Counted from the first letter of the stretch, positions 128 through 23,893 are shown. The stretch: DNA of 37,515 nucleotides from a virus (IMGVR_UViG_3300031951_000533:1-37515); one strand, 5' to 3'. Translations and numbers: made by a program. Notes: generated by a model from the sequence alone, not told the origin.

Positions 128-583
128 TTTGAGTTCCTCCAATATGGAATTCAAATCCTGTTCCTGCCAAAATTCAGAATCAGTTTCACTATCAATTGCA
201 TTCAACAATTCCTGATTTGTTATTGTCTTTTTGTCAATACAAATCTTTGCCATTTTGAAAATGATTCCAATGGTTGATTCATTCAATGAAATGTGTTCAA
301 AGATATTTTCACGAACCATCAGCAAAGTTTCTGCAATGACTTCTTGCAATCTGAAATCATCTTTCAATGCATCCCATGCATTTGCACCTTGAAGCAAATT
401 CAATTTGCCTGTGAAATAAGAATCACCTAACATCTTTTTTTGCAATTGCGATTCATATGCTTTTCTTGCACCCTCACTTGTTTCCAATTCCGAAAGTAGT
501 GGTGTTACTTCATTGTATAATTTCTGTGAAAGGATTTTGTGCAATTGCACTTTGTATTCTTTGCCATCCAAATAGATATTCAT
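83..583 (-). CDS. Tail assembly chaperone, upstream frame (lambda gpG-like position)
   Basis: A 166-residue acidic, mostly helical protein lying between the tail-tube gene and, across the contig junction, the tape measure gene. That is the standard place for the tail assembly chaperone that coats the tape measure protein. I recognise it by position, not by sequence. The open frame extends to 634, but the ATG at 583 has GAGG seven bases before it, and the longer version would run through a hairpin at 622-648. Its last 32 bases (83-114) overlap the next frame (start 37502 = 114). Two Phe codons on a run of six T (127-122), preceded by GGAGG, form a possible frameshift site near residue 154. Confidence 0.75.
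   Translation of the reverse strand: MNIYLDGKEYKVQLHKILSQKLYNEVTPLLSELETSEGARKAYESQLQKKMLGDSYFTGKLNLLQGANAWDALKDDFRLQEVIAETLLMVRENIFEHISLNESTIGIIFKMAKICIDKKTITNQELLNAIDSETDSEFWQEQDLNSILEELKFFRQNVLGRIKTNP
122..139 (-). promoter_or_regulatory. Candidate programmed frameshift site in the tail chaperone pair
   Basis: On the minus strand GGAGG is followed after 8 bases by TTTTTTC. The upstream frame reads AAA TTT TTT CGT. The downstream frame is +1 (equal to -2) relative to it. A -2 slip of the second TTT lands on TTT again, and a +1 slip lands on TTC, so either keeps good tRNA-Phe pairing. The fused product would be about 247 residues. The downstream ATG has no Shine-Dalgarno at normal distance, which favours frameshifting. 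No experiment supports it here. Confidence 0.5.
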
Positions 584-621
584 ATATGCCTCATAAATTG
601 ATTCTAAGCAATGAAAATAGT

Positions 622-648
622 GGGCAGGACACAATTTATGCCCTGCCC
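622..648 (-). terminator. Hairpin after the major tail protein gene
   Basis: GGGCAGG (622-628) and CCTGCCC (642-648) form a perfect 7-bp G/C-rich stem with a 13-base loop, between the tail-tube stop (658) and the chaperone start (583). On the minus strand it is followed only by ACTATTTTC, so it may be a weak terminator or an mRNA 3'-end stabiliser that raises tail-tube expression over the genes below it. Confidence 0.55.
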
Positions 649-657
649 TTGTTTTGT

Positions 658-1224
658 TTAATTACCGACGCCTGTGAGCCATAATTCTACATATCCCTTA
701 TCAGCAGGAATTGTGACATATGTTGCCAATGTTACAAGTGATGAACGGAATGCTGTAATAGGAACAGTCACAACAGAATCATTGTTGACAATTTCACCAC
801 CAACTTTTGGTTTGGTGTACTTGCCTGATTCCATGTCAAACGCTCCGACATCCTGTGCCAATTTACAAAGCATGATGACCACTTTTCTTTTGTTGGTGTG
901 ATCTGGATTTGTGCCCGCATATTTGGAACCATAGGTTATTTTTGCAATGGTTTGTGATGCTGCTGTTGCCGAATTGAATTTCACGCCGTCTTCATATTCA
1001 CCTGAATCTGATGCTGCCTGTGTTTGTGGTGCATAGAGTGTCAGGAAGTTTGTCAAATCAGGATCATCTTCATTCTGATCAATTGTGAAATTTGTTCTTG
1101 TCACTGATGTCTTGATTTTCTTTGTCAAAGAAATCAATGGTACTGTTGTTGTCGCGAACAATGGTACACCATTTGATTCAAATGCTGTAAAAAAGTCCGT
1201 GACGTTTGCGCCTCCAATTAGCAT
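658..1224 (-). CDS. Major tail (tube) protein, probable
   Basis: A 188-residue soluble, beta-rich protein with no transmembrane segment or signal peptide. It lies after the connector and terminator-type genes and before the chaperone/tape-measure genes, which is the normal place of the tail tube subunit. Its size suits a siphovirus tube protein. I do not recognise a motif, so the call rests on synteny. A glycosyltransferase gene ends 4 bases upstream of its start, and a stable hairpin (622-648) follows its stop, consistent with separate control of an abundant structural protein. Confidence 0.7.
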   Translation of the reverse strand: MLIGGANVTDFFTAFESNGVPLFATTTVPLISLTKKIKTSVTRTNFTIDQNEDDPDLTNFLTLYAPQTQAASDSGEYEDGVKFNSATAASQTIAKITYGSKYAGTNPDHTNKRKVVIMLCKLAQDVGAFDMESGKYTKPKVGGEIVNNDSVVTVPITAFRSSLVTLATYVTIPADKGYVELWLTGVGN

Positions 1225-1228
1225 AGTT

Positions 1229-1915
1229 TTATTCCTTTACTTTGAGTGTTGAAAAAGTCTTGATTAAATAATTCCAAGCCCGCTTGCTTGGTTTCCGTAT
1301 ATATTCTCGAATCAGCAATTTTCCATTTCTTGTGCCTTTGTCTTCAAAGCCATCGCTATCAATTTTGTATCCATCATGAATCAGGACAATATCAGTATCA
1401 ACAAATGCTGTTGTTTCATCATGTGATGTCAATGCCTCGTGACAGATGCCCTCCCAAAACAATCCTGAATTCTTTTTATGCAATCTTCCTGCATGAAGTG
1501 CATAGCGTTCTCTGACTCTGTCTTCATGACTTGTATCATACATCAATCCTGAAATTGTAATCCATCCACCAACCGCGCCCGCTTCATCTATTGCCTGAAT
1601 TTCTGCAATGGCATCTTCTGGGAATGTTCCCAAATATTCATCAGAATCAATATGCAAAGACCAATCACCTGATGCCAATTCATCCATCTTGTTTCTGATT
1701 TCGGCAAAGTTAAAGTCAATGCCATAATCTTTGTAATAGTAATGAATAGAAACAATGCTTTGTGTGTTCGCAATGACTTCAAATTGATTTTCATATTCAT
1801 CCCTTTGTTCAACTGCGCATGAAACAATTTGTGTTCCTTTTGGCAATCTTGAAATTAGTCTTGATAGGTTTGCTTTCTTTGGATGAATGATGCAAACTGA
1901 TAGTAAATTATTCAT
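1229..1915 (-). CDS. GT2-type (GT-A fold) glycosyltransferase in the tail module
   Basis: 228 residues. The N-terminus has the alternating strand pattern of family-2 glycosyltransferases (LLSVCIIHPKK), followed by NFAEIRNKMDELASGDW and then HIDSDEYL near residue 90, an acidic D-x-D type site that would bind metal and nucleotide-sugar. A WEGICHEAL segment further on resembles the acceptor region of TPR-linked GT2 enzymes. Its ATG overlaps the stop of the upstream tail gene by 4 bases (ATGA), and its stop lies 4 bases before the tail-tube ATG, so it is built into the virion operon. I infer that it may glycosylate a tail or capsid protein; host surface glycans are an alternative substrate. Confidence 0.8.
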   Translation of the reverse strand: MNNLLSVCIIHPKKANLSRLISRLPKGTQIVSCAVEQRDEYENQFEVIANTQSIVSIHYYYKDYGIDFNFAEIRNKMDELASGDWSLHIDSDEYLGTFPEDAIAEIQAIDEAGAVGGWITISGLMYDTSHEDRVRERYALHAGRLHKKNSGLFWEGICHEALTSHDETTAFVDTDIVLIHDGYKIDSDGFEDKGTRNGKLLIREYIRKPSKRAWNYLIKTFSTLKVKE

Positions 1916-2373
1916 GATATTCTTGTGTAAAAAATGCGAAAAGTCATCAATGTCAATCCCTTTGTTTCATCATCTGAATATGTAATTGGTTCACTTGAAA
2001 TATAGTGAACAGGTGAAAAGGTTGTTGTCTCATAATCTGATTTGTAGAATTCAATCCGCAAATCTTGCAATGCATATTCCACACGCTCTGCCAATTCTTG
2101 CATGGCATGTCGTAATTTTCCTGCACCTAGTGTTGGTGTCTTTTTCACTGAATTCCCTAACAGAATGAACAAATCAACTTTGCCCAAATCGGCAACTGCT
2201 GACATGTCTTCCATTGATTCAGTGAACCGTTCATCTGTTGAACCATATATGCCTACATAATCAAATTGGTATGTTTCGTATTTGTTCAGCAGTATTTGTT
2301 CATAAACTCGGACGCCTGACATCATGCCAAGTTTTTCAATGATTGCATCTGTGATATGTTTTTCTCTTGACAT
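1912..2373 (-). CDS. Tail terminator / tail completion protein, probable
   Basis: 153 residues. The pattern of an N-terminal helix (REKHITDAIIEKL), central hydrophobic strands (KVDLFILLG) and a closing strand set (TLMTFRIFYTR) fits the small tail-terminator fold, and its place between the gpG/gp10-like gene and the tail tube supports that role. It would stop tail-tube polymerisation and join head to tail. Recognition is mainly by position. It shares a 4-base ATGA overlap with the following glycosyltransferase gene. Confidence 0.55.
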   Translation of the reverse strand: MSREKHITDAIIEKLGMMSGVRVYEQILLNKYETYQFDYVGIYGSTDERFTESMEDMSAVADLGKVDLFILLGNSVKKTPTLGAGKLRHAMQELAERVEYALQDLRIEFYKSDYETTTFSPVHYISSEPITYSDDETKGLTLMTFRIFYTRIS

Positions 2374-2376
2374 AGA

Positions 2377-2982
2377 TCATTCCCGTGTTCTGTTTTGCAT
2401 GTCTTGTAATTGCTGAACAATTGCAATTCTCATTTGTTGTGTGAATCTTTCTTTGACATTTGAATTGAAATCATCAATTGCGTTTTGCCAATATGGTCTT
2501 GCTTTAATATCAACACCGCCTTTCTGTTCAACTGATAATGCAATCCTTTTGAAAAATGGTGCTTTTGTTTTGTAATATTTGAACCAAAAGAACTGTGCCA
2601 TTTTGGTTGTTTCCTTTTTCATCTTCCTGCCACTTTTGCTTTTGATAACAGTCAATGGTGTTCCTTTGATGAATCCACCAAATTCATGTATTGCAGCATA
2701 TTTGATTTTTGAACCATATTCCAATTCAAATTTGTTTCCGCTTTGTTTTGCCTTGTAAATATTTTTTGCATTGTTCTTGATGAATGATTGAAACAACTTT
2801 CCACTTGATTTGTACAAAACATCACCTGTATTGAAAACAGGTGCAGCGGATGATGCACCGCCTGTTGCACCTTGATCCTTCATAAACTTTGCAATTGATA
2901 TTTGCATGAAGACAGGAAATTGTTGCATCTGGTCTGCAATGACAGGTCTTATGACATTCATGACTTGTGTTGTTGAAAACAT
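2377..2982 (-). CDS. Virion morphogenesis / head-tail joining protein (HK97 gp10-like or Mu gpG-like)
   Basis: 201 residues. The conserved-looking core YAAIHEFGGFIKG followed by a basic stretch (KSKSGRKMKKET) and a late ARPYWQNAI motif is typical of the family of small head-tail completion proteins in which YA..HEFGG and RPFW/RPYW recur. It probably completes the connector. The gene directly abuts the connector gene (stop at 2983) and is followed by the tail terminator candidate 3 bases on. Confidence 0.7.
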   Translation of the reverse strand: MFSTTQVMNVIRPVIADQMQQFPVFMQISIAKFMKDQGATGGASSAAPVFNTGDVLYKSSGKLFQSFIKNNAKNIYKAKQSGNKFELEYGSKIKYAAIHEFGGFIKGTPLTVIKSKSGRKMKKETTKMAQFFWFKYYKTKAPFFKRIALSVEQKGGVDIKARPYWQNAIDDFNSNVKERFTQQMRIAIVQQLQDMQNRTRE

Positions 2983-3609
2983 TTACACCACCGCAATTCT
3001 ATATTTGTCAAAGAATCTTTGCCATTTCAAATCTTGCAAAATACTAGCATTCACATTTTGACCTGCGCCGCCTGTTGAAACAGAACCAAGTCCAAACCAA
3101 TTACCACCACTTGCGCTTTGCTTGTATATCCATGATGACATTTCAACAATGCCTTGAATAACTGTATTGGGTAAATTGGCATCGCTCCACCCTGTTGAAA
3201 GTGTTGCACGAAATTGTCCACTATTGATATTCCTGAATATGACAAAGTTCAATCCATTATCAACTGATGTTGTGAAATTTCCTGCACTCACATTTGCATA
3301 GCTTCCAAATTCATCAACACGCCATTGAAAAGCCGTCACAGACGTGTTTGCATTGAAAGGGATATATTTCCACCTGTGTTCACTTTCCAAGCCGTGACGG
3401 GCTTGTGAATAGTTAAAAACATAGTTTATAACAGATGCCCTGAGAGGCTGATTGCAATAGCCTTCAGCCTCATCAAAGCAAATATCAAATAAATCATCAA
3501 ACCATTCATATAAAACGGCATCCTCTGCAGATTGATCACCTGCCAATTCAAGATTGTTGAATTGAAAAAATGCCTGTTGAATGCGAGGGTATGCCGTTGT
3601 ATAACTCAT
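2983..3609 (-). CDS. Head-tail connector (adaptor) protein, gp6-like
   Basis: 208 residues. The N-terminal half is helical and acidic (DLFDICFDEAEGYCNQPLRA), as in phage gp6-like adaptors (HK97 gp6, SPP1 gp15) that dock under the portal ring. The C-terminal half (STGWSDANLPNTVIQGIVEM) holds the helix often ending such adaptors. Its position just after the capsid gene supports the call. Its start overlaps the stop of the small upstream gene by 4 bases (ATGA). Confidence 0.65.
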   Translation of the reverse strand: MSYTTAYPRIQQAFFQFNNLELAGDQSAEDAVLYEWFDDLFDICFDEAEGYCNQPLRASVINYVFNYSQARHGLESEHRWKYIPFNANTSVTAFQWRVDEFGSYANVSAGNFTTSVDNGLNFVIFRNINSGQFRATLSTGWSDANLPNTVIQGIVEMSSWIYKQSASGGNWFGLGSVSTGGAGQNVNASILQDLKWQRFFDKYRIAVV

Positions 3610-3788
3610 TTTTTGAATGCCTTTGGTTCTGATGATTTTTTAGAAATTACGGATGCAGGTTTTTCGCCTGCATCCTCTTTTGTTACATGTCCACTTGCAT
3701 GAAGTTTTTCAAATTCAAAATCTTTCAATTGTGTAATTCTTCCAACTTCCAAACCTGCAAATGATTTCAATACAATTGCATCAATCAT
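3606..3788 (-). CDS. Small protein between capsid and connector genes
   Basis: 60 residues, beginning IDAIVLKSFAGLEVGRI with a Lys-rich tail. Small proteins like this are common after HK97-type capsid genes, sometimes as head-stabilising or connector accessory factors. Nothing in the sequence gives a firm function. It starts 11 bases after the capsid stop and overlaps the connector start by 4 bases. Confidence 0.6.
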   Translation of the reverse strand: MIDAIVLKSFAGLEVGRITQLKDFEFEKLHASGHVTKEDAGEKPASVISKKSSEPKAFKK

Positions 3789-3799
3789 GATTCACCTAA

Positions 3800-5023
3800 T
3801 TAAGTAGTTGATGTTTTCAACACACCGATTGCAGATGGTGCAGGGAATGCAATTCCAATTGATTCACTTACCATGATTCCGCGTTGTGATGTTCCACCCA
3901 AACCTGTCGCTGCAAAATATTCCTTGTATTCATCAACCGCTACATCCTCACGAATGCCGAGAATTGAATATTGTGAAAAGTCTGCATAAACTGCCGATGC
4001 TGTGTTTGCTGCTGATGATGGGAAAAGAGAATCAGGAACAACATGCATTGGTCTGCCTGTTGGTGTGACATAGGTATTGTTTTCGAGTGCAGTCAATCCA
4101 ATTGAATTCACTTCCATTGGTCTGATCATGTCCCAAATTGGTCTGCCATTCACACCGTCTGTTTCTTTCAAGAGATGTCCAAATACAGATTGTGGAACAA
4201 CAAAAACACCATTTGCACCAACGGATGAATTTACACCCAAACGAAGATTGATAAGATCCTTCCATGAGATTTCTGCAAATGTATCTTTGCCTGAATTATT
4301 TGCACCGCCTTGTCTAATTACGGATGTTCCTGACAATACCAAGCACCCTGTGAATTCAGGCGCATTTCCTGTGCCTTTGAAGAATTGCTTGTCTTCTGCT
4401 TCGGCAACTGCCTGCGCTAGACCTTGGATTGTATAATCAAGAAAAGCAGGTGTTGCATCTCTCAATTGTTCATCAGTTACAATACATCCACCAACAATTT
4501 TCTTTGCTGTCAATGCTGTTCCTGTATAGAAACTTGTGCTGTCTGTCAATGTGAGGGATGAACCTTCTGCCACAACCGCTGCACTGAATGCACCTGATGA
4601 TGTGATGTTTTCGATTTTGCCACGCATTGGATAAATTTTTGCAAGTGCTCTTGCATATCCAAATCTATCAGCAAAAGACATAATGTCTTCCACCCAAAAT
4701 TGTGGAACTGCAAAACCACCTTGTGAATTTGTGCCTGTGTTGAAATCAGCTCTTGTGATATATCTTTCATTTGCACGATTTGCAATGTCTTCTGCCACAC
4801 CAATTTTACCTTTGGTGATTGCTGTAATATAATCAGCAACAATGCGAGCTTGATCGCGCTTGGAATCGTGCTCTGCTTTGACTTTCACAAAACCTGATTG
4901 TGGAATATTTGTAGGATTCATTCCACGCAATTTTTCTTGTGCTAATTCATTTGCTTTAGTTTCAACAACCTTTTGCAAATCTTCTTTTGTTGTTGTTATG
5001 ATGTTGTTATTCATCTTATTCAT
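3800..5023 (-). CDS. Major capsid protein, HK97 fold
   Basis: About 407 residues. An N-terminal helical, charged region (about 1-85: KEDLQKVVETKANELAQEKL) resembles a delta/scaffold-like segment removed by the prohead protease. It is followed by the capsid core with TGTNSQGGFAVPQFWVEDI, the usual G-G-x-x-V-P start of the HK97-fold domain, and a late VDEYKEYFAATG segment. Its place right after the protease gene is diagnostic. I chose the ATG at 5023 because it overlaps the protease TGA as ATGA; an ATG two codons upstream (5029) is also possible. Confidence 0.9.
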   Translation of the reverse strand: MNKMNNNIITTTKEDLQKVVETKANELAQEKLRGMNPTNIPQSGFVKVKAEHDSKRDQARIVADYITAITKGKIGVAEDIANRANERYITRADFNTGTNSQGGFAVPQFWVEDIMSFADRFGYARALAKIYPMRGKIENITSSGAFSAAVVAEGSSLTLTDSTSFYTGTALTAKKIVGGCIVTDEQLRDATPAFLDYTIQGLAQAVAEAEDKQFFKGTGNAPEFTGCLVLSGTSVIRQGGANNSGKDTFAEISWKDLINLRLGVNSSVGANGVFVVPQSVFGHLLKETDGVNGRPIWDMIRPMEVNSIGLTALENNTYVTPTGRPMHVVPDSLFPSSAANTASAVYADFSQYSILGIREDVAVDEYKEYFAATGLGGTSQRGIMVSESIGIAFPAPSAIGVLKTSTT

Positions 5024-6351
5024 TTCCATTCAATTGTGTTCAAAATAGTTTGTGCATCCATCTTCACTGGCAATTCAATTGAAAAGCCTCTTTCCGTGTC
5101 AATAGCTTTTTTGATTTTCTTGTTTCCTTCATTGATCATTCCAACGCCTTCCATAATCAATGACATTGTTGTTGCTGCAATTCTTCTGCCTGCTCTTGTT
5201 TCAAATGATGCCTCAACAGGTGCTGTTGCATCAGGTGATGGTTGTGCAGGTGCAGGCTCAACTTGTGGTTGTGGTTCAACTGTTGCATCAGGATTCAAAA
5301 TGGACATGACTTTTTCTGCCATTGCCATTGTGCCTTCCTCTGCTGCTTGTGTTGCCAATGTTTCTTCAATTCCCAATTCCTCTTTCAAGAATAGCAATGC
5401 AGCTTCCTTGATGACAGGCAGTAATTGTTCTTCGATGGCAACAACCTGTTCAGGTGTTAACATTCGTTTTTCCTCATATAATTTTTTCAATACATCGCGA
5501 AAACTTTTGGGTTGCTGATTCTCAAAATGTTTCTTGATAAGTGCATCACGATTTGCGGGGATCGTGACAACCGAAAATTCAACCAATTCTGATTTTGTGT
5601 ATGTGATTATTTTTTCGCCTTCAATCGTTTGTTCTGTTTGTTCAATTGGAATAATACCAACGGAAACTGCAGACACAAATCCATTTTTGATTTTGTCATT
5701 TACCTTGCATGCCTTTTCATCATTCATGTCCAATTGAATTGTGGCTTCCAAGTTTTCACCATTTAAGAAAAATCCAAGACATTTTCCTATTGGCAAATAA
5801 TCTGATTTGTGATTGATCAACACAACAGGGTTGTTCATGTATGCCATGTAATCAATTCCACTTGGAATGATGATGGTTCCGTATCTGTCAACATCAGGTG
5901 TGCTGATGGTGAAAGACCAAATGCCATCATCCTTTTCTTCATATTCACCTTCTCCATTTTCATAATCGCGTTTCACCAAAGTGAATTCACGATGGATAAC
6001 ATTTTGCATATTCATTCCTTTTGATTCTTGTTTTGCTTTTGCTGATTCAATTATGTTTCGTGACCATGTGAAGCCTGCATCACCACCCCAAAGACCCCAT
6101 GCAACACGCCCTTTGCTTGGATACCCTTTTTCATCAGGTTCAAAGCCTTCTGCTTTCTTGTCAACTTCATGCCTAGAAAAATATGAATACATCCTTTGCA
6201 CAATGTCAAATGATAATTCATCACCATTGACAATTTGCCGTGCTCTTATTCTTCCAACTCGCGTTCCACCTTCGTGACCATCTTCAATCCATTTGATTGC
6301 ACGGGCTGCTTCAATCTTCATGCCGTCTGTTGGTTTGTATTTTTCTGCCAT
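5020..6351 (-). CDS. Prohead protease with an extra N-terminal domain and C-terminal scaffold-like region
   Basis: 443 residues from the ATG at 6351; the frame extends upstream to 6390 but that part overlaps the portal gene. Residues about 11-97 form a domain with GGTRVGRIRARQIVNG, SRHEVDKKAEGF and GRVAWGLWGGDAG, a pattern I remember from phage head modules without a settled function. Residues about 120-280 are a U35/HK97-type serine protease: His181 in VLINHKS and Ser230 in SAVSVG, then ELVEFSVVTIPAN. The rest, with an acidic Pro/Gln/Ala-rich linker (VEPQPQVEPAPAQPSP) and a helical tail, probably acts as internal scaffold. It cleaves capsid and scaffold in the prohead. Confidence 0.88.
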   Translation of the reverse strand: MAEKYKPTDGMKIEAARAIKWIEDGHEGGTRVGRIRARQIVNGDELSFDIVQRMYSYFSRHEVDKKAEGFEPDEKGYPSKGRVAWGLWGGDAGFTWSRNIIESAKAKQESKGMNMQNVIHREFTLVKRDYENGEGEYEEKDDGIWSFTISTPDVDRYGTIIIPSGIDYMAYMNNPVVLINHKSDYLPIGKCLGFFLNGENLEATIQLDMNDEKACKVNDKIKNGFVSAVSVGIIPIEQTEQTIEGEKIITYTKSELVEFSVVTIPANRDALIKKHFENQQPKSFRDVLKKLYEEKRMLTPEQVVAIEEQLLPVIKEAALLFLKEELGIEETLATQAAEEGTMAMAEKVMSILNPDATVEPQPQVEPAPAQPSPDATAPVEASFETRAGRRIAATTMSLIMEGVGMINEGNKKIKKAIDTERGFSIELPVKMDAQTILNTIEWK

Positions 6352-6353
6352 GA

Positions 6354-8396
6354 CTATTTGTCCTGAACAGGAAACAAATAACAACGGCATCTTACAACAT
6401 TGGCTGCTTTCACTGTTGTGCCACCTTGTGATGATCCTGCAGGTCTATCAATCAATGAACCGTCACCAAATTTGAACCAACCAAGTTCATTTTCAATTTG
6501 TCCATCAATTGCTTTGTGTGCAGGTCTCACATTTCCATCTCTTTGTGTATTCCACATTGACTTGACTTTCATTGATTTGAAAACAGTCTTTTGTGTTCCT
6601 GTGGTCACTGATGTTGCCGTTGTTTGTGCAATCATTTGAACACGAATTGTTGAAAGTGTTTTGAATTCCCTTTGCAAGATTTCTTCCAACACTTCCTTTG
6701 ATTGTGTTGCATTCTGTGAAATGGTTTCAATAACATCCTGCTTTATCAAATCCATTGAATCATTGATTGAAGAAACAATCTGTGAATTCAAATCCCTTGA
6801 CATCTGTTGCAATTGTTGTCCGAGTTCGCCACTCAAATCCTCTTTGCCCAAACCAAAATCTTTCAATACTTTTTGTGTCACTTGGTTTGTTGCATCATCA
6901 ACAACCTTTGCAAGTTTTGCCGATTGTTCAGCATTCAATCCACTTGTTTCCTGAACCCCTGTTCCTGATTCCAATGCATCAAATGTTTCATTTTCAAATT
7001 CAGTGACAAAACCTTTGACAACCGTTCCCAATTTACCTGATATGCTATTTGCCATTTCATCATATTGTCTCCATGACTCCGCTTTTGCATCTGCTGTTTG
7101 CATAGGGAATGATCGTGGCACAATAGTATTTTTTGCCCCTATAAACGCCCGTGGTTGAACGGAAACACTATCAGGGGATGAAACTACTGTTGTAATAGGA
7201 ACAACACCATTGACAAGCATTGCAACATCACCACCTTGAATTGTGTCATACCCTCTTTCCCGTCTTGCATCATTGATTGTTTTGATGCCATATTTCAATT
7301 CAAATTCTTCCTGCTTGATTTGGGAATCAACATCCGCAAATTCATATGGTTGTGCCTGAATCAATATGTCATCTTCATAGCGTCTGAAATGTCTTGTGAA
7401 TTCTTCTGCCATGTAAATTGCAACAGGATCAATTGTCTGTTGTCTGAACACGGCATATTGCACTTCTGCTGTTGCACGATTTTGGAATTCACCTGTTAGC
7501 ATTCCTGTTGGAACACCAAACACCTGTGCAATTTGTGATCTCACATCTTTTGAAATTGAATCATAAGACATTCCAATTTGTGATTCAGGTGGCATTGTCA
7601 ATTGCAATCCACCATCAAGCAATGCACGCAATCTGTAATTTGGCAGGGCTTCATTCCATTGCTCTTTCAATGTGTTCCATAAGTCACCATCAACATTATC
7701 TGCCGATGTTGCAATGAGTGGTGGAACGGCATCATTTGCAAAGAATCTTGAAAGATAGTCACTCACTTCTTTGTCAATGCTTGCATATGGCAATACGGCA
7801 GAAACAAGTCCTTTGCCGAATATATTCATGCCAATCATTTCATCAGGTTTTGATGATGCAGGAAACAAATTCGCAATGTGCATGACTTCATCTTCTGGCA
7901 ATGTGAATGCACCATCATTTGCGGATTGATACACATAACCTTTAATGAAATTGTCACCACCCCTGATGACTCTCATTCTTGTTGGATTCAAAACCCACAT
8001 TTGCAATGGAACATCATGTCCAAGTTTTGGTGTCCACACAAATGCATTGCCATTGATATCAAACCAATTCTGAATGCTCTTAAATATTTGTGAATATGTG
8101 AAATATGGATTTGGATTTTTCATCAGGCGATTTACCCAATGACTGTTTGATACTTCTTCCTTTTCCCAATTCAATTCACGATATGGCTTCATGTCAACAG
8201 ACATCAATCCATTGGCACGCAATTGCAAACATGCAAAGACAGTGCCTGTTGCCGATGCAATCAATTCTTGTCCTGATGTGACTGATGTCATTCCCCTGCC
8301 ATCATTCAAATATCCAATTGGAGGTCTCTTGCGTTTTTCCTGAACACCGCCTGCAATGAATTTCACACGCTCTAATATGTTTGCATAAAGTGACAT
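6354..8396 (-). CDS. Portal protein fused to a Mu gpF-like (MuF) C-terminal domain
   Basis: About 680 residues. Residues 1-400 read as an HK97-type portal: an early RANGLMSVDMKPYRE, HWVNRLMKNPNPYFT, IQNWFDINGNAFVW, and VFGVPTGMLTGEF followed by VQYAVFRQQTIDP. A long helical region follows. The last 90 residues contain WNTQRDGNVRPAHKAIDGQ and end with VRCRCYLFPV, the signature of the MuF minor head domain. Portal and MuF are usually separate genes. The portal forms the DNA-entry ring; the MuF part is probably internal to the head. I chose the ATG at 8396; a TTG at 8402 is possible. TerL ends 9 bases upstream, and the protease starts 2 bases after the stop. Confidence 0.88.
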   Translation of the reverse strand: MSLYANILERVKFIAGGVQEKRKRPPIGYLNDGRGMTSVTSGQELIASATGTVFACLQLRANGLMSVDMKPYRELNWEKEEVSNSHWVNRLMKNPNPYFTYSQIFKSIQNWFDINGNAFVWTPKLGHDVPLQMWVLNPTRMRVIRGGDNFIKGYVYQSANDGAFTLPEDEVMHIANLFPASSKPDEMIGMNIFGKGLVSAVLPYASIDKEVSDYLSRFFANDAVPPLIATSADNVDGDLWNTLKEQWNEALPNYRLRALLDGGLQLTMPPESQIGMSYDSISKDVRSQIAQVFGVPTGMLTGEFQNRATAEVQYAVFRQQTIDPVAIYMAEEFTRHFRRYEDDILIQAQPYEFADVDSQIKQEEFELKYGIKTINDARRERGYDTIQGGDVAMLVNGVVPITTVVSSPDSVSVQPRAFIGAKNTIVPRSFPMQTADAKAESWRQYDEMANSISGKLGTVVKGFVTEFENETFDALESGTGVQETSGLNAEQSAKLAKVVDDATNQVTQKVLKDFGLGKEDLSGELGQQLQQMSRDLNSQIVSSINDSMDLIKQDVIETISQNATQSKEVLEEILQREFKTLSTIRVQMIAQTTATSVTTGTQKTVFKSMKVKSMWNTQRDGNVRPAHKAIDGQIENELGWFKFGDGSLIDRPAGSSQGGTTVKAANVVRCRCYLFPVQDK

Positions 8397-8405
8397 TTTC
8401 AATTC

Positions 8406-9560
8406 CTATACATGAATACTCGGTGTTTTTCTTATGGCATTAAAAGCCATTGACAATGCATCAATCATGTCATCATGCCTATCTTGTTTCGTGCCTGTGA
8501 ATGATAACAATTCATCAGTGAATTCAGGAAGCAAGTGAGGCACATGGTACACAAGCCCTCTTTCATATTTTGCTTCAATCGGTTGAAATCTTATCATCTT
8601 GTCTTTTGTTGATGGAATGCCAATCACATTCATTCTGGTGTTTCTTTTCAATTCCTGAACCAACCATGCCTGTGCCTGATTCGATTCAATGGCAACAACT
8701 TTTGGTTTCCATTTGTCTTCCATTGCAATAATCCTTTCACCAATTTCAACAAATGTCCAACGCCCTCTCATCATCTCACAAACAACAACTTCATTCTTTG
8801 CAGTTATGCCAATTACACAAATTGCCGTATAGTCTGCAGTTTCTTTTTCAGATATTGCCAAATCCACACCAATATAGAATGATTTGCATTCCATTTGATT
8901 TGAAATGCGTATCCATTCCCTTTTGATTTTCGCTGCATCCCTATCAACATATTCTGCCAAATATTCCTGTGCAAAAACAAGTGATGGCATTGAATCTCTT
9001 TGTTGATTCACCTCACTAGCATCAATCAATGGATTATCATATGTAGTGAAATGAAATGACTGCCAATCATCAAATTTGTTTTGCATTGAATCAAGTTCTG
9101 AAAAATGATTCTTTCCTTTTGGTGTTGAAAAGAAAAATGAATCACCTTTGTAATCTGTTAGCATAGGGCGCAAAACAAAATTCCAATCATCCTCTGCATT
9201 GTCACAATATGCCCATTCATCACCAATCATTCTATGATATTTAGAGCCTCTCAATGCATCAGCACGCCAAATGCCTTTCAAATGCAAGAATGATTCACCA
9301 AGTCTGATTTCACCTTCTTTGCATTCTGCACCAACGGCAGTGAACATGTTCTTGGCTTCCTGATACCTACCTTTCAATTCTTCATTTGATGGTGCAGTGT
9401 ACAAAACCTTTGTTCCTTGCATTCCAACCATTGTTTCGAGTGCCAATGCAAAAGCAAGTGTTGATTTACCCCAGCGCCTTCCACATCTCACAACATTGAA
9501 TCTTTTGCGCTGTTGCATCACTTCCATTTGTGTCTTATGTAGAGTGACATCAATTTGCAT
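8406..9560 (-). CDS. terL: Terminase large subunit
   Basis: 384 residues. The ATPase half has Walker A CGRRWGKST at residues 26-34, Walker B MIGDEWAY at 111-118 and a motif III STPKG at 145-149. The nuclease half has the RNase-H-like acidic residues Asp233 (IGVDLAIS), Glu292 (VAIESN) and Asp363-Asp367 (RHDDMIDA). All catalytic features are present. At 384 residues it is short for the family, with little N-terminal extension. It packages DNA into the prohead through the portal. Its start overlaps the TerS gene by 11 bases. Confidence 0.95.
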   Translation of the reverse strand: MQIDVTLHKTQMEVMQQRKRFNVVRCGRRWGKSTLAFALALETMVGMQGTKVLYTAPSNEELKGRYQEAKNMFTAVGAECKEGEIRLGESFLHLKGIWRADALRGSKYHRMIGDEWAYCDNAEDDWNFVLRPMLTDYKGDSFFFSTPKGKNHFSELDSMQNKFDDWQSFHFTTYDNPLIDASEVNQQRDSMPSLVFAQEYLAEYVDRDAAKIKREWIRISNQMECKSFYIGVDLAISEKETADYTAICVIGITAKNEVVVCEMMRGRWTFVEIGERIIAMEDKWKPKVVAIESNQAQAWLVQELKRNTRMNVIGIPSTKDKMIRFQPIEAKYERGLVYHVPHLLPEFTDELLSFTGTKQDRHDDMIDALSMAFNAIRKTPSIHV

Positions 9561-9912
9561 CCATCTGATTCCATTTGATTGTCAATGCATCTTCCTTTTG
9601 CTTTGTTTCCTTTGGCACGCCTGATAATCTTGCGGCTTCATCATCTGTTGCAATCAATTTCATCAATGCCACTTGCAATGTTGCATTCTCTGATTGATAC
9701 CACTTTTTACGCATGTTTGCTTTCATGCTGATTCTGTTCTTTGCCAGTCTTGCTTTTATGTCGTTAAGTTCATTAGATTCAGGCGGGAAAAAAGAATAGA
9801 ATGTTGGTGCTGAACATGGCAACAATCCAATGATGTCATCAATGAAAATCAAGTGATGTTTTTCAATCAGTTCCAATGATTCTTTCAATATGTTTTCTTT
9901 TTTATATGCCAT
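9550..9912 (-). CDS. terS: Terminase small subunit, probable
   Basis: 120 residues directly upstream of TerL and overlapping it by 11 bases. The N-terminal 45 residues (LKESLELIEKHHLIFIDDIIG then CSAPTFYSFFP) look like a helix-turn-helix DNA-recognition region that would bind the packaging site, followed by a helical, basic part. This arrangement matches small terminases of Bacteroidota phages, but the call is mainly by position. Its start overlaps the stop of the glycosyltransferase gene by 11 bases, so the cassette upstream is translationally joined to the packaging genes. Confidence 0.7.
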   Translation of the reverse strand: MAYKKENILKESLELIEKHHLIFIDDIIGLLPCSAPTFYSFFPPESNELNDIKARLAKNRISMKANMRKKWYQSENATLQVALMKLIATDDEAARLSGVPKETKQKEDALTIKWNQMDAN

Positions 9913-10768
9913 TGTTATTTTTACAATGCAATTGACTAATTATTTTTGGCACAGCATATGCCCAACTTATCTTATGATGTATCCGCCTTTCTTTACTTCC
10001 CATTGTAGACACTTTGCAGCAATTAGGGGCAACCATTACAGAATAAAATGATTTCACGTATGTTCCATAATTTTTGTATGCTTCTGTATTGCCACCTATA
10101 TTTTTTTGTGTTTGTGATTGATTCACCTGCATGCTGCCAACTTGGAGAAATATTTGCCCTGTTTTCCCATAATTAAGATATGTATTGACATCATCATTCA
10201 TTCTGCCTAAAAATTGCAAATCGTTTTTTTTTGCATTTACAGCGAAGAAAAACGTATTCATTGCCTTGCGTTTATAATTTTGCAATATATCCAAATTCCC
10301 ACCTATGTAGTCACCTCCTTGGGCGAACGCAATAGATCTTATTTTTGTTTTTGATAAACACTGCAAAAAAATATCGAATATTTTGTCAAGGTTTTTTACA
10401 TTTTTTTGGGCAAGATACTTGCCATCCTGATACCTCATTTGAAAATTATTGTAGTCATCTTCAAATTCAAGAAAATATTTTAGGTTCAATTTCCTTGCAA
10501 TATCCCAACATGCATTTCTTGCATATACAATAACTTTATTGCCTTCAAAATTATCCATAATATCAAAAGTATTTTCATATTCTTTTTTACTAAAGATAAT
10601 TACTTCGTTGCCATAATTTTCTAAATATTCATGTTTGGTTTTGTCCTCATCGTCAATGATGATGTATATTTTTCCAGTGTAGCCATGCCTTCTCAATGTG
10701 TTGTATGTTATGACATTGTTCGGTCTGCCGTTAGTAAGAATAAAAACAGCGTATTTATTTTGTTGCAT
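9902..10768 (-). CDS. TAGT-like glycosyltransferase (TET-associated glycosyltransferase family)
   Basis: 288 residues. Motifs I associate with the TAGT family are present: NGRPNN (13-18), YIIIDDEDKT (35-44), VIVYARNACWDIA (79-91), YFLEFEDDYNNFQ (98-110, a D-x-D type site), GRMNDDVNTY (188-197) and RRIHHKISW (261-269). Known members lie in phage base-modification clusters and are proposed to add sugars to 5-hydroxymethylcytosine made by TET/JBP oxygenases. No such oxygenase or hydroxymethylase is visible in this genome, so the acceptor is open: a base made by the host, a virion or host surface component, or an unrecognised base. The gene is more A/T-rich, with more homopolymers, than the head genes. 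It overlaps both neighbours (14 and 11 bases). Confidence 0.75.
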   Translation of the reverse strand: MQQNKYAVFILTNGRPNNVITYNTLRRHGYTGKIYIIIDDEDKTKHEYLENYGNEVIIFSKKEYENTFDIMDNFEGNKVIVYARNACWDIARKLNLKYFLEFEDDYNNFQMRYQDGKYLAQKNVKNLDKIFDIFLQCLSKTKIRSIAFAQGGDYIGGNLDILQNYKRKAMNTFFFAVNAKKNDLQFLGRMNDDVNTYLNYGKTGQIFLQVGSMQVNQSQTQKNIGGNTEAYKNYGTYVKSFYSVMVAPNCCKVSTMGSKERRIHHKISWAYAVPKIISQLHCKNNNGI

Positions 10769-11714
10769 ATAAATTACTCTCTTTTTTTATTCTTGTGCTA
10801 GAATAGTTATGATTTCGATTGATATAAATTATCTGTTTATTGAGATTTTCAATTGTATCCTTCAATTCCCAATTATTTTGCATATGATCGGCACCAAGAA
10901 AATATATATCATAGTCAAGGCTTTTGAACATGTCTATATCTTTTTCTATGTTTTCATATGGAATTATTTCATCAACCCACTTCACAGCTCGAAGTTGCAT
11001 ATATCTCTGATATATTGATTGCTGTGGGTTTTTATAGTTAGGAGCGCAATGTAAGCCAACAATAAGATAATCGCATTTCTTTTTTGCTTCCTCGAGTGCA
11101 ACAATGTGACCGGCATGCAATATATCGGCAACCATAGGGAAAAATCCAATTTTCATATTTATACCTTTTTTTTCAAATTTATATGCCTTACAATTTGATA
11201 TATGAATTTTGTAGTATGCGATGTGCAATGGTTGCTTAGGTTTTTCAAATACAAATTTGCACATTTTTATTGTGCCACTGTGCGCTACAATCAAAATTTT
11301 TTTGTTATCGTATTTATTTTCAATTTCTTGAATAAAGTTTTCAACTCTTTGGTAAAATTGTTGTTTACTTTCAATTGAATATTTTTCTAAAAATCTTGGA
11401 TTTTCATCTCTTAATAGTTTTTCACTATTGAAGTGCCTGCCTTCTAGTAAACCCTTTGACAATTCTTTTAATCTTGAATCATAATATATTGGAACAGCTC
11501 TATGATGTTCTAATATCTTAATTGCTGTTTTTCTTGCTCTTTCAAGTGGAGAAGAAAAACAAATATCAAAGTTTTCGTTTTTCAATTCGTCCGATATTCT
11601 TTTTGCTTGTTTTCTTCCTTCGTCACTTAATGGGATGTCATATTGACCGTGCATGATCCCATTTTTATTCCAATATGTTTGTCCGTGCCGAACAAAGACA
11701 TAATTATTCTTCAT
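10755..11714 (-). CDS. Fusion: histidine phosphatase + TagD/RfaE-type cytidylyltransferase
   Basis: 319 residues. Residues 1-180 are a histidine-phosphatase domain: VRHGQT (8-13) with catalytic His10, LERARKTA (57-64), ELSKGLLEGR (84-93) and the second catalytic His in IVAHSGT (142-148). Residues 187-319 are a nucleotidyltransferase: LHAGH (199-203, the HxGH motif), KKCDYLIVGLH, YQRYMQLRAVKWVDEIIPY, and SSTRI (305-309), closest to glycerol-3-phosphate cytidylyltransferases. It would dephosphorylate one intermediate and activate another as a CDP derivative. The joint holds an A8 tract and an internal ATG at 11156 with AAAGG before it, so a separate cytidylyltransferase could also be made. A/T-rich; overlaps both neighbours. 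Confidence 0.85.
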   Translation of the reverse strand: MKNNYVFVRHGQTYWNKNGIMHGQYDIPLSDEGRKQAKRISDELKNENFDICFSSPLERARKTAIKILEHHRAVPIYYDSRLKELSKGLLEGRHFNSEKLLRDENPRFLEKYSIESKQQFYQRVENFIQEIENKYDNKKILIVAHSGTIKMCKFVFEKPKQPLHIAYYKIHISNCKAYKFEKKGINMKIGFFPMVADILHAGHIVALEEAKKKCDYLIVGLHCAPNYKNPQQSIYQRYMQLRAVKWVDEIIPYENIEKDIDMFKSLDYDIYFLGADHMQNNWELKDTIENLNKQIIYINRNHNYSSTRIKKESNLYATK

Positions 11715-12465
11715 TGTTTAGAATGCCCTGAATATCTTTCGATAATTGTACAAAGCCATTTTCAATTGCCTTTTCGAAATCAATTATGACAAGTGCAGAT
11801 TTTTCCATTAACGATTGCATTTCATCCGACGAATGTGCATACAAATCAGCAATTTTTGCATAATTAAACACAATGTGTCTTGTTGCTGCATATTTCAAAA
11901 AATCTTTTTCTTTTTGATTCAAATTTGATTTTTGTATTTCAGATAACAATTCTTGATATTTACTTACGTCAAATACATCTATGATTTCTGGTTTTTCATT
12001 ACTCGGTTCATATATTGGCGTTGCAACTTTATTTGTATATTTCTCATCATATTCTTCAATATCATTCTTTTCTATAATATCTTCATCAATATCCAAATTT
12101 ACAGGCAAATCCAATCCCCATTCTTGCAATTGAATTGCATCCCATTCATTTGCCAATTCTTCATGATTCCATTCACCAAAGTTCACATTGTCTTTGATAA
12201 GAAATTGTGCCTTTTGTTCCTCTGTCCATTCATCAGCAACAATAACCGGCAATTCTTTGATGCCAAGTTCCTTTGCTGCTTTCAATCTCATGTTGCCACC
12301 CAATACAACAAACTTTCCATCTTTGTCAGTGAACACAACTAATGGTCTCTTTTCAAGCATATCAGGGAATTCTTCAATACTCTTTTTTAGTTTGTTGAAT
12401 TTTTCATCACGAATCACACGCGGGTTTTTCGGATTGTTCTTTAGTTTTGTCAATGCCACTTTCAT
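11704..12465 (-). CDS. ParB-like nuclease-domain protein
   Basis: 253 residues from the ATG at 12465, which overlaps the upstream TGA as ATGA. Residues 1-115 are a ParB/Srx-type domain: KLKNNPKNPRVIRDEKFNKL, then VVLGGNMRLKAAKELG and LPVIVADEWTEEQK, followed by FGEWNHEELANEWD. Phages often carry this form alone or fused to DNA methyltransferases. The remaining region has an acidic linker and a helical end (RHIVFNYAKIADLYAHSSDE); no methyltransferase motif is present. From about 12080 downward its DNA is more A/T-rich, like the next two genes. It overlaps the fusion gene by 11 bases. Confidence 0.8.
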   Translation of the reverse strand: MKVALTKLKNNPKNPRVIRDEKFNKLKKSIEEFPDMLEKRPLVVFTDKDGKFVVLGGNMRLKAAKELGIKELPVIVADEWTEEQKAQFLIKDNVNFGEWNHEELANEWDAIQLQEWGLDLPVNLDIDEDIIEKNDIEEYDEKYTNKVATPIYEPSNEKPEIIDVFDVSKYQELLSEIQKSNLNQKEKDFLKYAATRHIVFNYAKIADLYAHSSDEMQSLMEKSALVIIDFEKAIENGFVQLSKDIQGILNNEE

Positions 12466-23185: not shown

Positions 23186-23893
23186 TCAAGCCGTAATATA
23201 GTGAAAATACTTCAAATGATTTTTGCGCAAAAATTGCAATGTTTCTGCATATTCATCATGGTTGATTCCAACAGTTTGTGATCCGACATGATGAACATAG
23301 GAACGGCCTACAAAATGCTTCAACCCTTTGTCTGCCATCATTAGGCATTGCACATCATCTGAATATTGGTTGATTGATAAAAAATCAATCCATGATTCCC
23401 TTCTGATGACTGCACAAATTGGAGCAATGATGTCTGTTTCAACAATCCTGTTTTCATGATTAAATTTCAAATTGACAATCTGTGTTTCCCTATCATGCCA
23501 CCTGATATTTTGCATGCCTCTTGCAAAATTAGAACGGCATGCCAAATATCCAACATTCTCTGAATCATAATTCATGAGAGCTTTCCAATCAGATTGCAAC
23601 AATGAAAATGTCGTTGGATCAAAAACAATATCATCATTAGCCACAATGATTGTGTCATGCTTTTCAAATGCCCTTTGACATATGAAATTATAGGCATCAC
23701 CAAAATTGTTTGCTGTGGACTTTACAAGGTGCATTGAATGCCATCTTGAATGATAATCAATTGAATCAATTCCAGAATGCGCAATGTATATTTCAACTGA
23801 TGATGGCACATATTTCTCAATTGATTTCAGCATGACAGGAAGATTCTTTGCATGAACAGTGCTGATGCAAATTGCCGTGATTTTATTTTGCAT
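23186..23893 (-). CDS. GT2-like glycosyltransferase in the replication region
   Basis: 235 residues. An N-terminal ITAICISTVHAKNLPVMLKS strand/helix, a middle DTIIVANDDIVFDPT with an acidic D-D site, and a later IIAPICAVIRRESW segment with DKGLKHFVGRSYVHH resemble GT-A fold enzymes that use nucleotide-sugars. It differs from the tail-module glycosyltransferase in motif spacing. Its early position points to action on the host cell or on DNA rather than the virion. It overlaps the upstream gene by 11 bases. Confidence 0.7.
   Translation of the reverse strand: MQNKITAICISTVHAKNLPVMLKSIEKYVPSSVEIYIAHSGIDSIDYHSRWHSMHLVKSTANNFGDAYNFICQRAFEKHDTIIVANDDIVFDPTTFSLLQSDWKALMNYDSENVGYLACRSNFARGMQNIRWHDRETQIVNLKFNHENRIVETDIIAPICAVIRRESWIDFLSINQYSDDVQCLMMADKGLKHFVGRSYVHHVGSQTVGINHDEYAETLQFLRKNHLKYFHYITA

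Follow-up and report, generated by a model that had tools for sequence, protein, structure and literature searches.

A near-obligate partner domain of phage TAGT glycosyltransferases and a terminase-linked cassette with a putative CDP-donor arm

Results

A three-gene cassette runs into the terminase genes

The TAGT glycosyltransferase encoded by a 37.5 kb IMG/VR phage contig (the whole stretch analysed, termed the window) belongs to a near-obligate pair with the C-terminal domain of a ParB-like protein, which we designate TPD (TAGT-partner domain). In the window, the pair is accompanied by HPCT, a histidine-phosphatase/cytidylyltransferase fusion. We read this cassette as one version, supplied with a CDP-activated donor, of a widespread phage module whose TPD takes TAGT to DNA, a reading to which we give about an even chance.

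The genes sit on the minus strand. The ParB-like ORF occupies 11704-12465 (−) with an ATG at 12465 (the mechanical ORF starts at a TTG, 12522), HPCT occupies 10755-11714 (−), and TAGT occupies 9902-10768 (−). Beyond TAGT lie a TerS-like gene (9550..9912, −), assigned by position and a weak phrog_141 match (E 0.015), and the gene of the terminase large subunit, TerL (8406..9560, −; Terminase_6C, 1e-16). The first-pass annotation of the window had described three overlapping genes, and the coordinates and both overlaps are as claimed: 11 bases between the ParB-like gene and HPCT (11704-11714) and 14 bases between HPCT and TAGT (10755-10768). Because 11-base overlaps continue between TAGT and the TerS-like ORF, and then between the TerS-like ORF and TerL, the unit order is ParB-HPCT-TAGT-TerS-TerL. 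Pfam and PHROGs agree with the assignments that had been made for the three products, and the active-site motifs are intact and conserved.

The GC content at 10-12 kb is 30.5%, the most AT-rich part of the window, with ~37% in the surroundings, as expected of a recent arrival. At the DNA level, relatives of the window amount to one short match. Elsewhere in the window, a weak GT2-like ORF (1229-1915, −; PF13704, E 0.005, HIDSDEY) lies among the head/neck genes, and a replication-region ORF (23186-23893, −) contains a GT-A-like VANDDIVFD stretch and has no family match.

TPD is the constant partner of TAGT

The N-terminal part of the ParB-like protein, ParB_N plus a disordered linker (aa 1-142; 12040..12465, −), matches Pfam ParB_N with E=2e-8 (34.4 bits, cut-off 26.3). 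Structures were predicted with AlphaFold from alignments built without rows from annotated records. The model of the ParB-like protein (pLDDT 85, pTM 0.53, disordered linker at ~125-147) retrieves CTP-bound ParB/Noc structures in Foldseek (E 3e-6), and these matches are confined to ParB_N. Pfam gives ParB_N alone in the window protein, with no central HTH of ParB partition proteins, and no ParA was found among the scanned window proteins.

When the ParB-like protein is split, the constant part proves to be the C-terminal ~110 residues, namely TPD (window aa 143-253, with the stop codon 11704..12039, −; phrog_620). TPD is predicted to be helical and its model has no structural match of its own in Foldseek; it has no Pfam model and no sequence relatives among solved structures. 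TAGT lies downstream of all 128 distinct TPDs (two sets, 63/63 and 65/65). Conversely, TPD lies upstream of 50 of 54 TAGTs, and two of the four exceptions fall within a five-TAGT array on contig L084. Scans with TAGT profiles and with ParB profiles recover the same pair from either side. The pairing is near-obligate, and the partner that TAGT cannot do without is TPD rather than the ParB domain. Of the earlier proposal that the ParB-like protein provides DNA contact, ParB_N stands as a probable DNA-finding front end; it is not the universal partner, and is absent from a large sister group, in which a motif resembling sliding-clamp-binding peptides replaces it.

TAGT matches PF20691 over the whole model length (E=6e-33, 114.9 bits, curated cut-off 27.5) and phrog_842 (E=1e-67). 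The acidic metal motif, D104/D105, is invariant in a 59-row alignment. TAGT has no sequence relatives among solved structures. Its model (pLDDT 90.8, pTM 0.89) matches the GT-A enzymes TarP, K4CP/chondroitin polymerase, GalNAc-T, and SunS in Foldseek, so the structure-prediction check suggested for TAGT supports the GT-A fold rather than rejecting it. Residue pairing with T6 TAGT was dropped, as T6 TAGT is not reliably alignable with the window TAGT clade. PGAP labels relatives of TAGT as GREB1-related.

Among 5426 complete E. coli genomes, 992 (~18%) have a TAGT match, 867 of which cover at least 80% of its length. In E. coli K-12, ynaK of the Rac prophage (L205, 3878-4141) is a truncated ParB_N of a prophage ParB-TPD (85/86 identical). 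Rac ydaY was considered as a TAGT remnant and rejected, having no match to TAGT.

The cassette is shared by mostly unrelated phages

HPCT is found in 52 viral contigs, 64-70% identical. Where the contig extends far enough, TAGT lies downstream of HPCT in 43/43 cases and ParB/TPD lies upstream in 33/33. The TerL, portal, and protease genes of the window are matched in just a few of the HPCT contigs, and the genes 3' of TAGT include three TerL sequence clusters. The same gene order in mostly unrelated phages thus indicates that the cassette is present in different phages at a fixed place before the terminase, and flanks that are invariant wherever present in the 52 contigs exclude chance. The cassette is real, mobile, and tightly linked; homologues of HPCT, TAGT, and ParB/TPD, which might have proved scattered, are found linked.

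All 36 HPCT loci and 85 of 93 ParB-TPD loci have TerL no more than 2.5 kb away. ParB-TAGT pairs that lack HPCT occur in annotated phages from E. coli, Lactobacillus, Nocardia, Haloarcula, and Porphyromonas, and most of these pairs immediately precede the terminase; Vibrio is a further host of the module. Specifically, Lactobacillus c5/jlb1, HHTV-2, Nocardia NTR1, and E. coli prophages have the same ParB-TPD and TAGT order as the window but no HPCT, and are annotated only as ParB nuclease, beta-glucosyl-HMC-alpha-glucosyltransferase, or hypothetical. The ParB-TAGT pair is far more widespread than the three-gene version. Stenotrophomonas phage DLP3 has ParB near TerL, with a sugar epimerase, an aminotransferase, and an RfaB-type glycosyltransferase upstream (PMC7326821), perhaps an analogous arrangement with another glycosyltransferase family.

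Free-standing TPDs carry a clamp-binding-like peptide

TPD stands alone, without ParB_N, in Vibrio phage SRILMA and on contigs L079, L084, L087, and L120. Scans with such free-standing TPDs recovered 94 further loci, and TAGT adjoins in all. A pentapeptide, Q-x-x-[LMI]-F (Qx[NDTSEK][LMI]F; QxNLF), is present in 67 of 74 distinct complete free-standing TPDs, and in 65 of the 67 its Q is the third residue, after MK. The Q and F are invariant and the neighbouring residues vary. With clusters defined on the TPD core alone at 70% identity, the motif occurs in 12/16 clusters compared with 6/1031 control ORFs, in a sample of mutually related bearers from loci ranked by similarity to one free-standing TPD, which favours motif bearers. 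At 60% identity, five clusters of free-standing TPDs are left, three of them with the motif. By comparison, the motif occurs in 1/187 ParB-TPD proteins and is absent from that of the window. The peptide agrees with QLxLF, the consensus for clamp binding in bacteria (PMC4549789), suggesting that it is clamp-binding-like.

The two forms differ in genomic setting: 121/129 ParB-type loci have TerL at a distance of 2.5 kb or less, compared with 17/77 free-standing loci (some contigs counted twice). The neighbours of free-standing TPD loci include DnaA-C, helicase, and primase families, and dnaN lies 2.3 kb upstream on L258. On L084, a 115 kb phage contig, positions 197-7846 hold PolA, then an ORF of 372 aa that matches the beta clamp weakly (E 0.003, below cut-off), and after it TPD, four TAGTs, a cytidylyltransferase, and the fifth TAGT.

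That two unrelated and interchangeable DNA-finding front ends are attached to one partner suggests that the module acts at DNA, and DNA is the likeliest target judging from these sequence features. The earlier annotation had left the choice among DNA, a host glycan, and a virion part; the first is favoured, and the other two fit poorly with the front ends and the wide range of hosts. T6 TAGT adds glucose to DNA, and T4 alpha-glucosyltransferase, which is known to glycosylate DNA, copurifies with gp45, the clamp of T4 (PMC13216743).

HPCT resembles a donor-making enzyme

HPCT consists of a branch 1 histidine phosphatase domain (11160..11714, −; His_Phos_1, E=3e-41, aa 6-177) and a TagD/ECT-like cytidylyltransferase domain (10755..11159, −; CTP_transf_like, E=2e-16, aa 197-311). 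The RHG residues of the phosphatase (R9, H10, G11) and its second His (H145) are invariant in 11 sequences, and its nearest solved structure is phosphoserine phosphatase 1. The cytidylyltransferase has the HxGH and R-N4-SST motifs (HAGH, SST), whose positions vary little or not at all among relatives, and its nearest solved structures are ethanolamine-phosphate and glycerol-3-phosphate cytidylyltransferases (E 2e-12 and 6e-12). A scan of 84,980 genome species, which reaches close relatives only, found only a distantly related phosphatase, which makes the fusion appear specific to phages. On L194 (5977-7659), ParB-TPD continues in frame into an HPCT that lacks the RHG part, reflecting either a deletion or an assembly error.

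A cytidylyltransferase without phosphatase is placed between TPD and TAGT on L079 and L083, and the one in the L084 array likewise has no phosphatase. TAGTs linked to HPCT form one supported set of 52 rows together with four labelled CT, some CT labels stemming from contigs cut inside HPCT. Given the relatives of the cytidylyltransferase, its occurrence near TAGT without phosphatase, and the supported TAGT set, a CDP-activated donor is likely, which is the natural reading of the enzyme and the one proposed at first. The group activated, X, may be a polyol or sugar. The role given to the phosphatase is conjectural and modelled on GmhB-type pathways, in which the phosphatase step precedes the nucleotidyltransferase step. 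In other branches of the module, the donor would probably be another nucleotide-activated group.

In Agathobaculum phage AB434P2 (L062, 769-5582), thymidylate-kinase-like, weak choline-kinase-like, cytidylyltransferase, weak GT-like, and dUMP hydroxymethylase genes stand in a row, the TagD-like gene 1 kb from the hydroxymethylase; this row is a possible case of CDP-dependent base modification.

Searches found almost no known base-preparing enzymes

Profile searches of the window agree with the earlier statement that it encodes no thymidylate synthase or hydroxymethylase (PF00303), no 2OG-Fe(II) oxygenase (PF13640), and no N6/N4 or C5 methylase. PF00303 gave matches in T6 and known genomes; it was absent from 25 HPCT records, 27 free-standing-TPD records, and 38 of 39 ParB/TPD phage records (the exception is a Vibrio phage), and PF13640 was absent from 27 records, many of the records in these hydroxylase searches possibly being fragments. 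Tet_JBP (PF12851) had no match in the window or in 50 records, and the control genomes were also silent, which makes this a weak test. The linked TET/JBP oxygenase or base hydroxymethylase expected of TAGT hypermodification systems was not found in the window with PF00303, PF13640, or PF12851, the last with its silent control. Without a known hydroxylase, the acceptor may be ordinary DNA, an unrecognised or host activity may prepare it, or the target may be protein. Radical SAM genes adjoin TPD-TAGT on L061 (7868-8827) and L290 (7506-8576), one with SPASM, and such enzymes might prepare acceptor or donor.

Discussion

The presence of this gene set across unrelated phages suggests a widespread form of DNA decoration that proceeds without known base-preparing enzymes. 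We infer that the cassette modifies DNA as follows. The HPCT phosphatase would take one phosphate off a bisphosphorylated precursor, and the cytidylyltransferase would couple CMP to the phosphate that is left, yielding CDP-X. TAGT would be bound by the TPD protein, as their near-obligate pairing suggests. The front end would find phage DNA, through the ParB domain in the late form next to the terminase and through the sliding-clamp-binding peptide in the sister form. TAGT would then move X from CDP-X onto phage DNA before or during packaging, a mark that would most likely serve nuclease evasion. Because known enzymes provide no hydroxylated base, the acceptor would be either a base without modification or a base changed beforehand by an enzyme of the host or an unrecognised one. 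Our more specific proposal, that a GT-A enzyme delivered by TPD via ParB or the clamp puts a CDP-activated group directly on a non-hydroxylated base or the backbone in widespread phages and prophages, is tentative and clearly short of an even chance.

The structures nearest to the GT-A model of TAGT, which are protein and polysaccharide transferases, speak against a DNA target. Protein glycosyltransferases (SunS, GalNAc-T3) are among them, relatives of TAGT bear the PGAP name GREB1-related, and the TAGT-like domain of animal GREB1 is reported to glycosylate protein. With TerS and TerL co-located and no base hydroxylase found, the module might instead glycosylate a protein involved in packaging or replication (terminase, portal, clamp, or TPD itself) and tune packaging or host takeover, the ParB domain or clamp peptide merely delivering the enzyme there. 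We consider this rather doubtful: the accompanying terminases form several sequence clusters, which indicates no single conserved protein target, the free-standing forms lie mostly away from terminase, and T6 TAGT acts on DNA.

T6 beta-glucosyl-HMC-alpha-glucosyltransferase is phage-encoded, has a GT-A fold, and belongs to the same families (PF20691, phrog_842), but it adjoins a dCMP hydroxymethylase and is accompanied by neither TPD nor ParB, whereas the window encodes a TPD partner and its own cytidylyltransferase and no hydroxymethylase. A T-even-like route, in which the host or an unrecognised phage enzyme would provide the hydroxymethylated base and TAGT would extend a sugar carried on it, is unlikely given the PF00303 results above; T6 TAGT is also too distant to be reached by the profile of the window clade.

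It is quite improbable that the cassette serves superinfection exclusion by altering a glycan of the host surface and lies near the terminase only incidentally. The ParB or clamp motifs on the partner proteins, hosts from Gram-negatives to Lactobacillus, Nocardia, and haloarchaea, the absence of a membrane part from the three proteins in the Pfam and structure results, and the position in a late operon all argue against it, even though TagD-like enzymes, the nearest solved relatives, normally supply CDP-polyols to cell-wall polymers and phages do carry surface-modifying glycosyltransferases. Hardly credible is a ParB-TPD that acts as a partition or transcription factor with the glycosyltransferase a mere hitch-hiker, as ParB_N and its CTP-bound ParB matches would allow, since no ParA was found in the window, free-standing TPDs keep TAGT without ParB_N, and TAGT adjoins every TPD in both sets.

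DNA modification by a TPD-delivered TAGT has partial parallels. T4 alpha-glucosyltransferase (GT63) binds the replication clamp gp45 (PMC13216743), but it is a GT-B enzyme of unrelated sequence, and the clamp peptide described here is on a separate partner and in the sister group only. TagD and PCYT2 share HxGH and R-N4-SST with the window cytidylyltransferase, which differs in being fused to a histidine phosphatase. The nucleotide-heptose pathway of GmhB and HldE/HddC follows the same logic, phosphatase then nucleotidyltransferase, while HPCT has a phosphatase of a different superfamily and a CTP-type domain in one polypeptide.

TAGT without TET was first put forward as a new cassette. The lack of a known base hydroxylase is upheld; the novelty is not, because solitary TAGTs were noted in 2026 in 288/753 phage genomes, function unassigned (PMC13216743). 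In the literature searched, no description of ParB-TAGT, TPD, or the clamp peptide was found, with an earlier mention in Iyer et al. 2013 (NAR) possible. TPD, its near-obligate pairing with TAGT, the exchange of ParB for the clamp peptide, and HPCT as a donor arm were likewise found in none of those papers and are apparently new.

If our reading is right, solitary TAGTs would have both a partner and a targeting logic, and those of one branch a donor pathway as well. The label 'beta-glucosyl-HMC-alpha-glucosyltransferase' in hydroxymethylase-less phages would become a testable DNA-modification hypothesis, one that bears on restriction evasion and on type IV and glycosylase defences. The module is present in common E. 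coli prophages and is thereby accessible to laboratory work.
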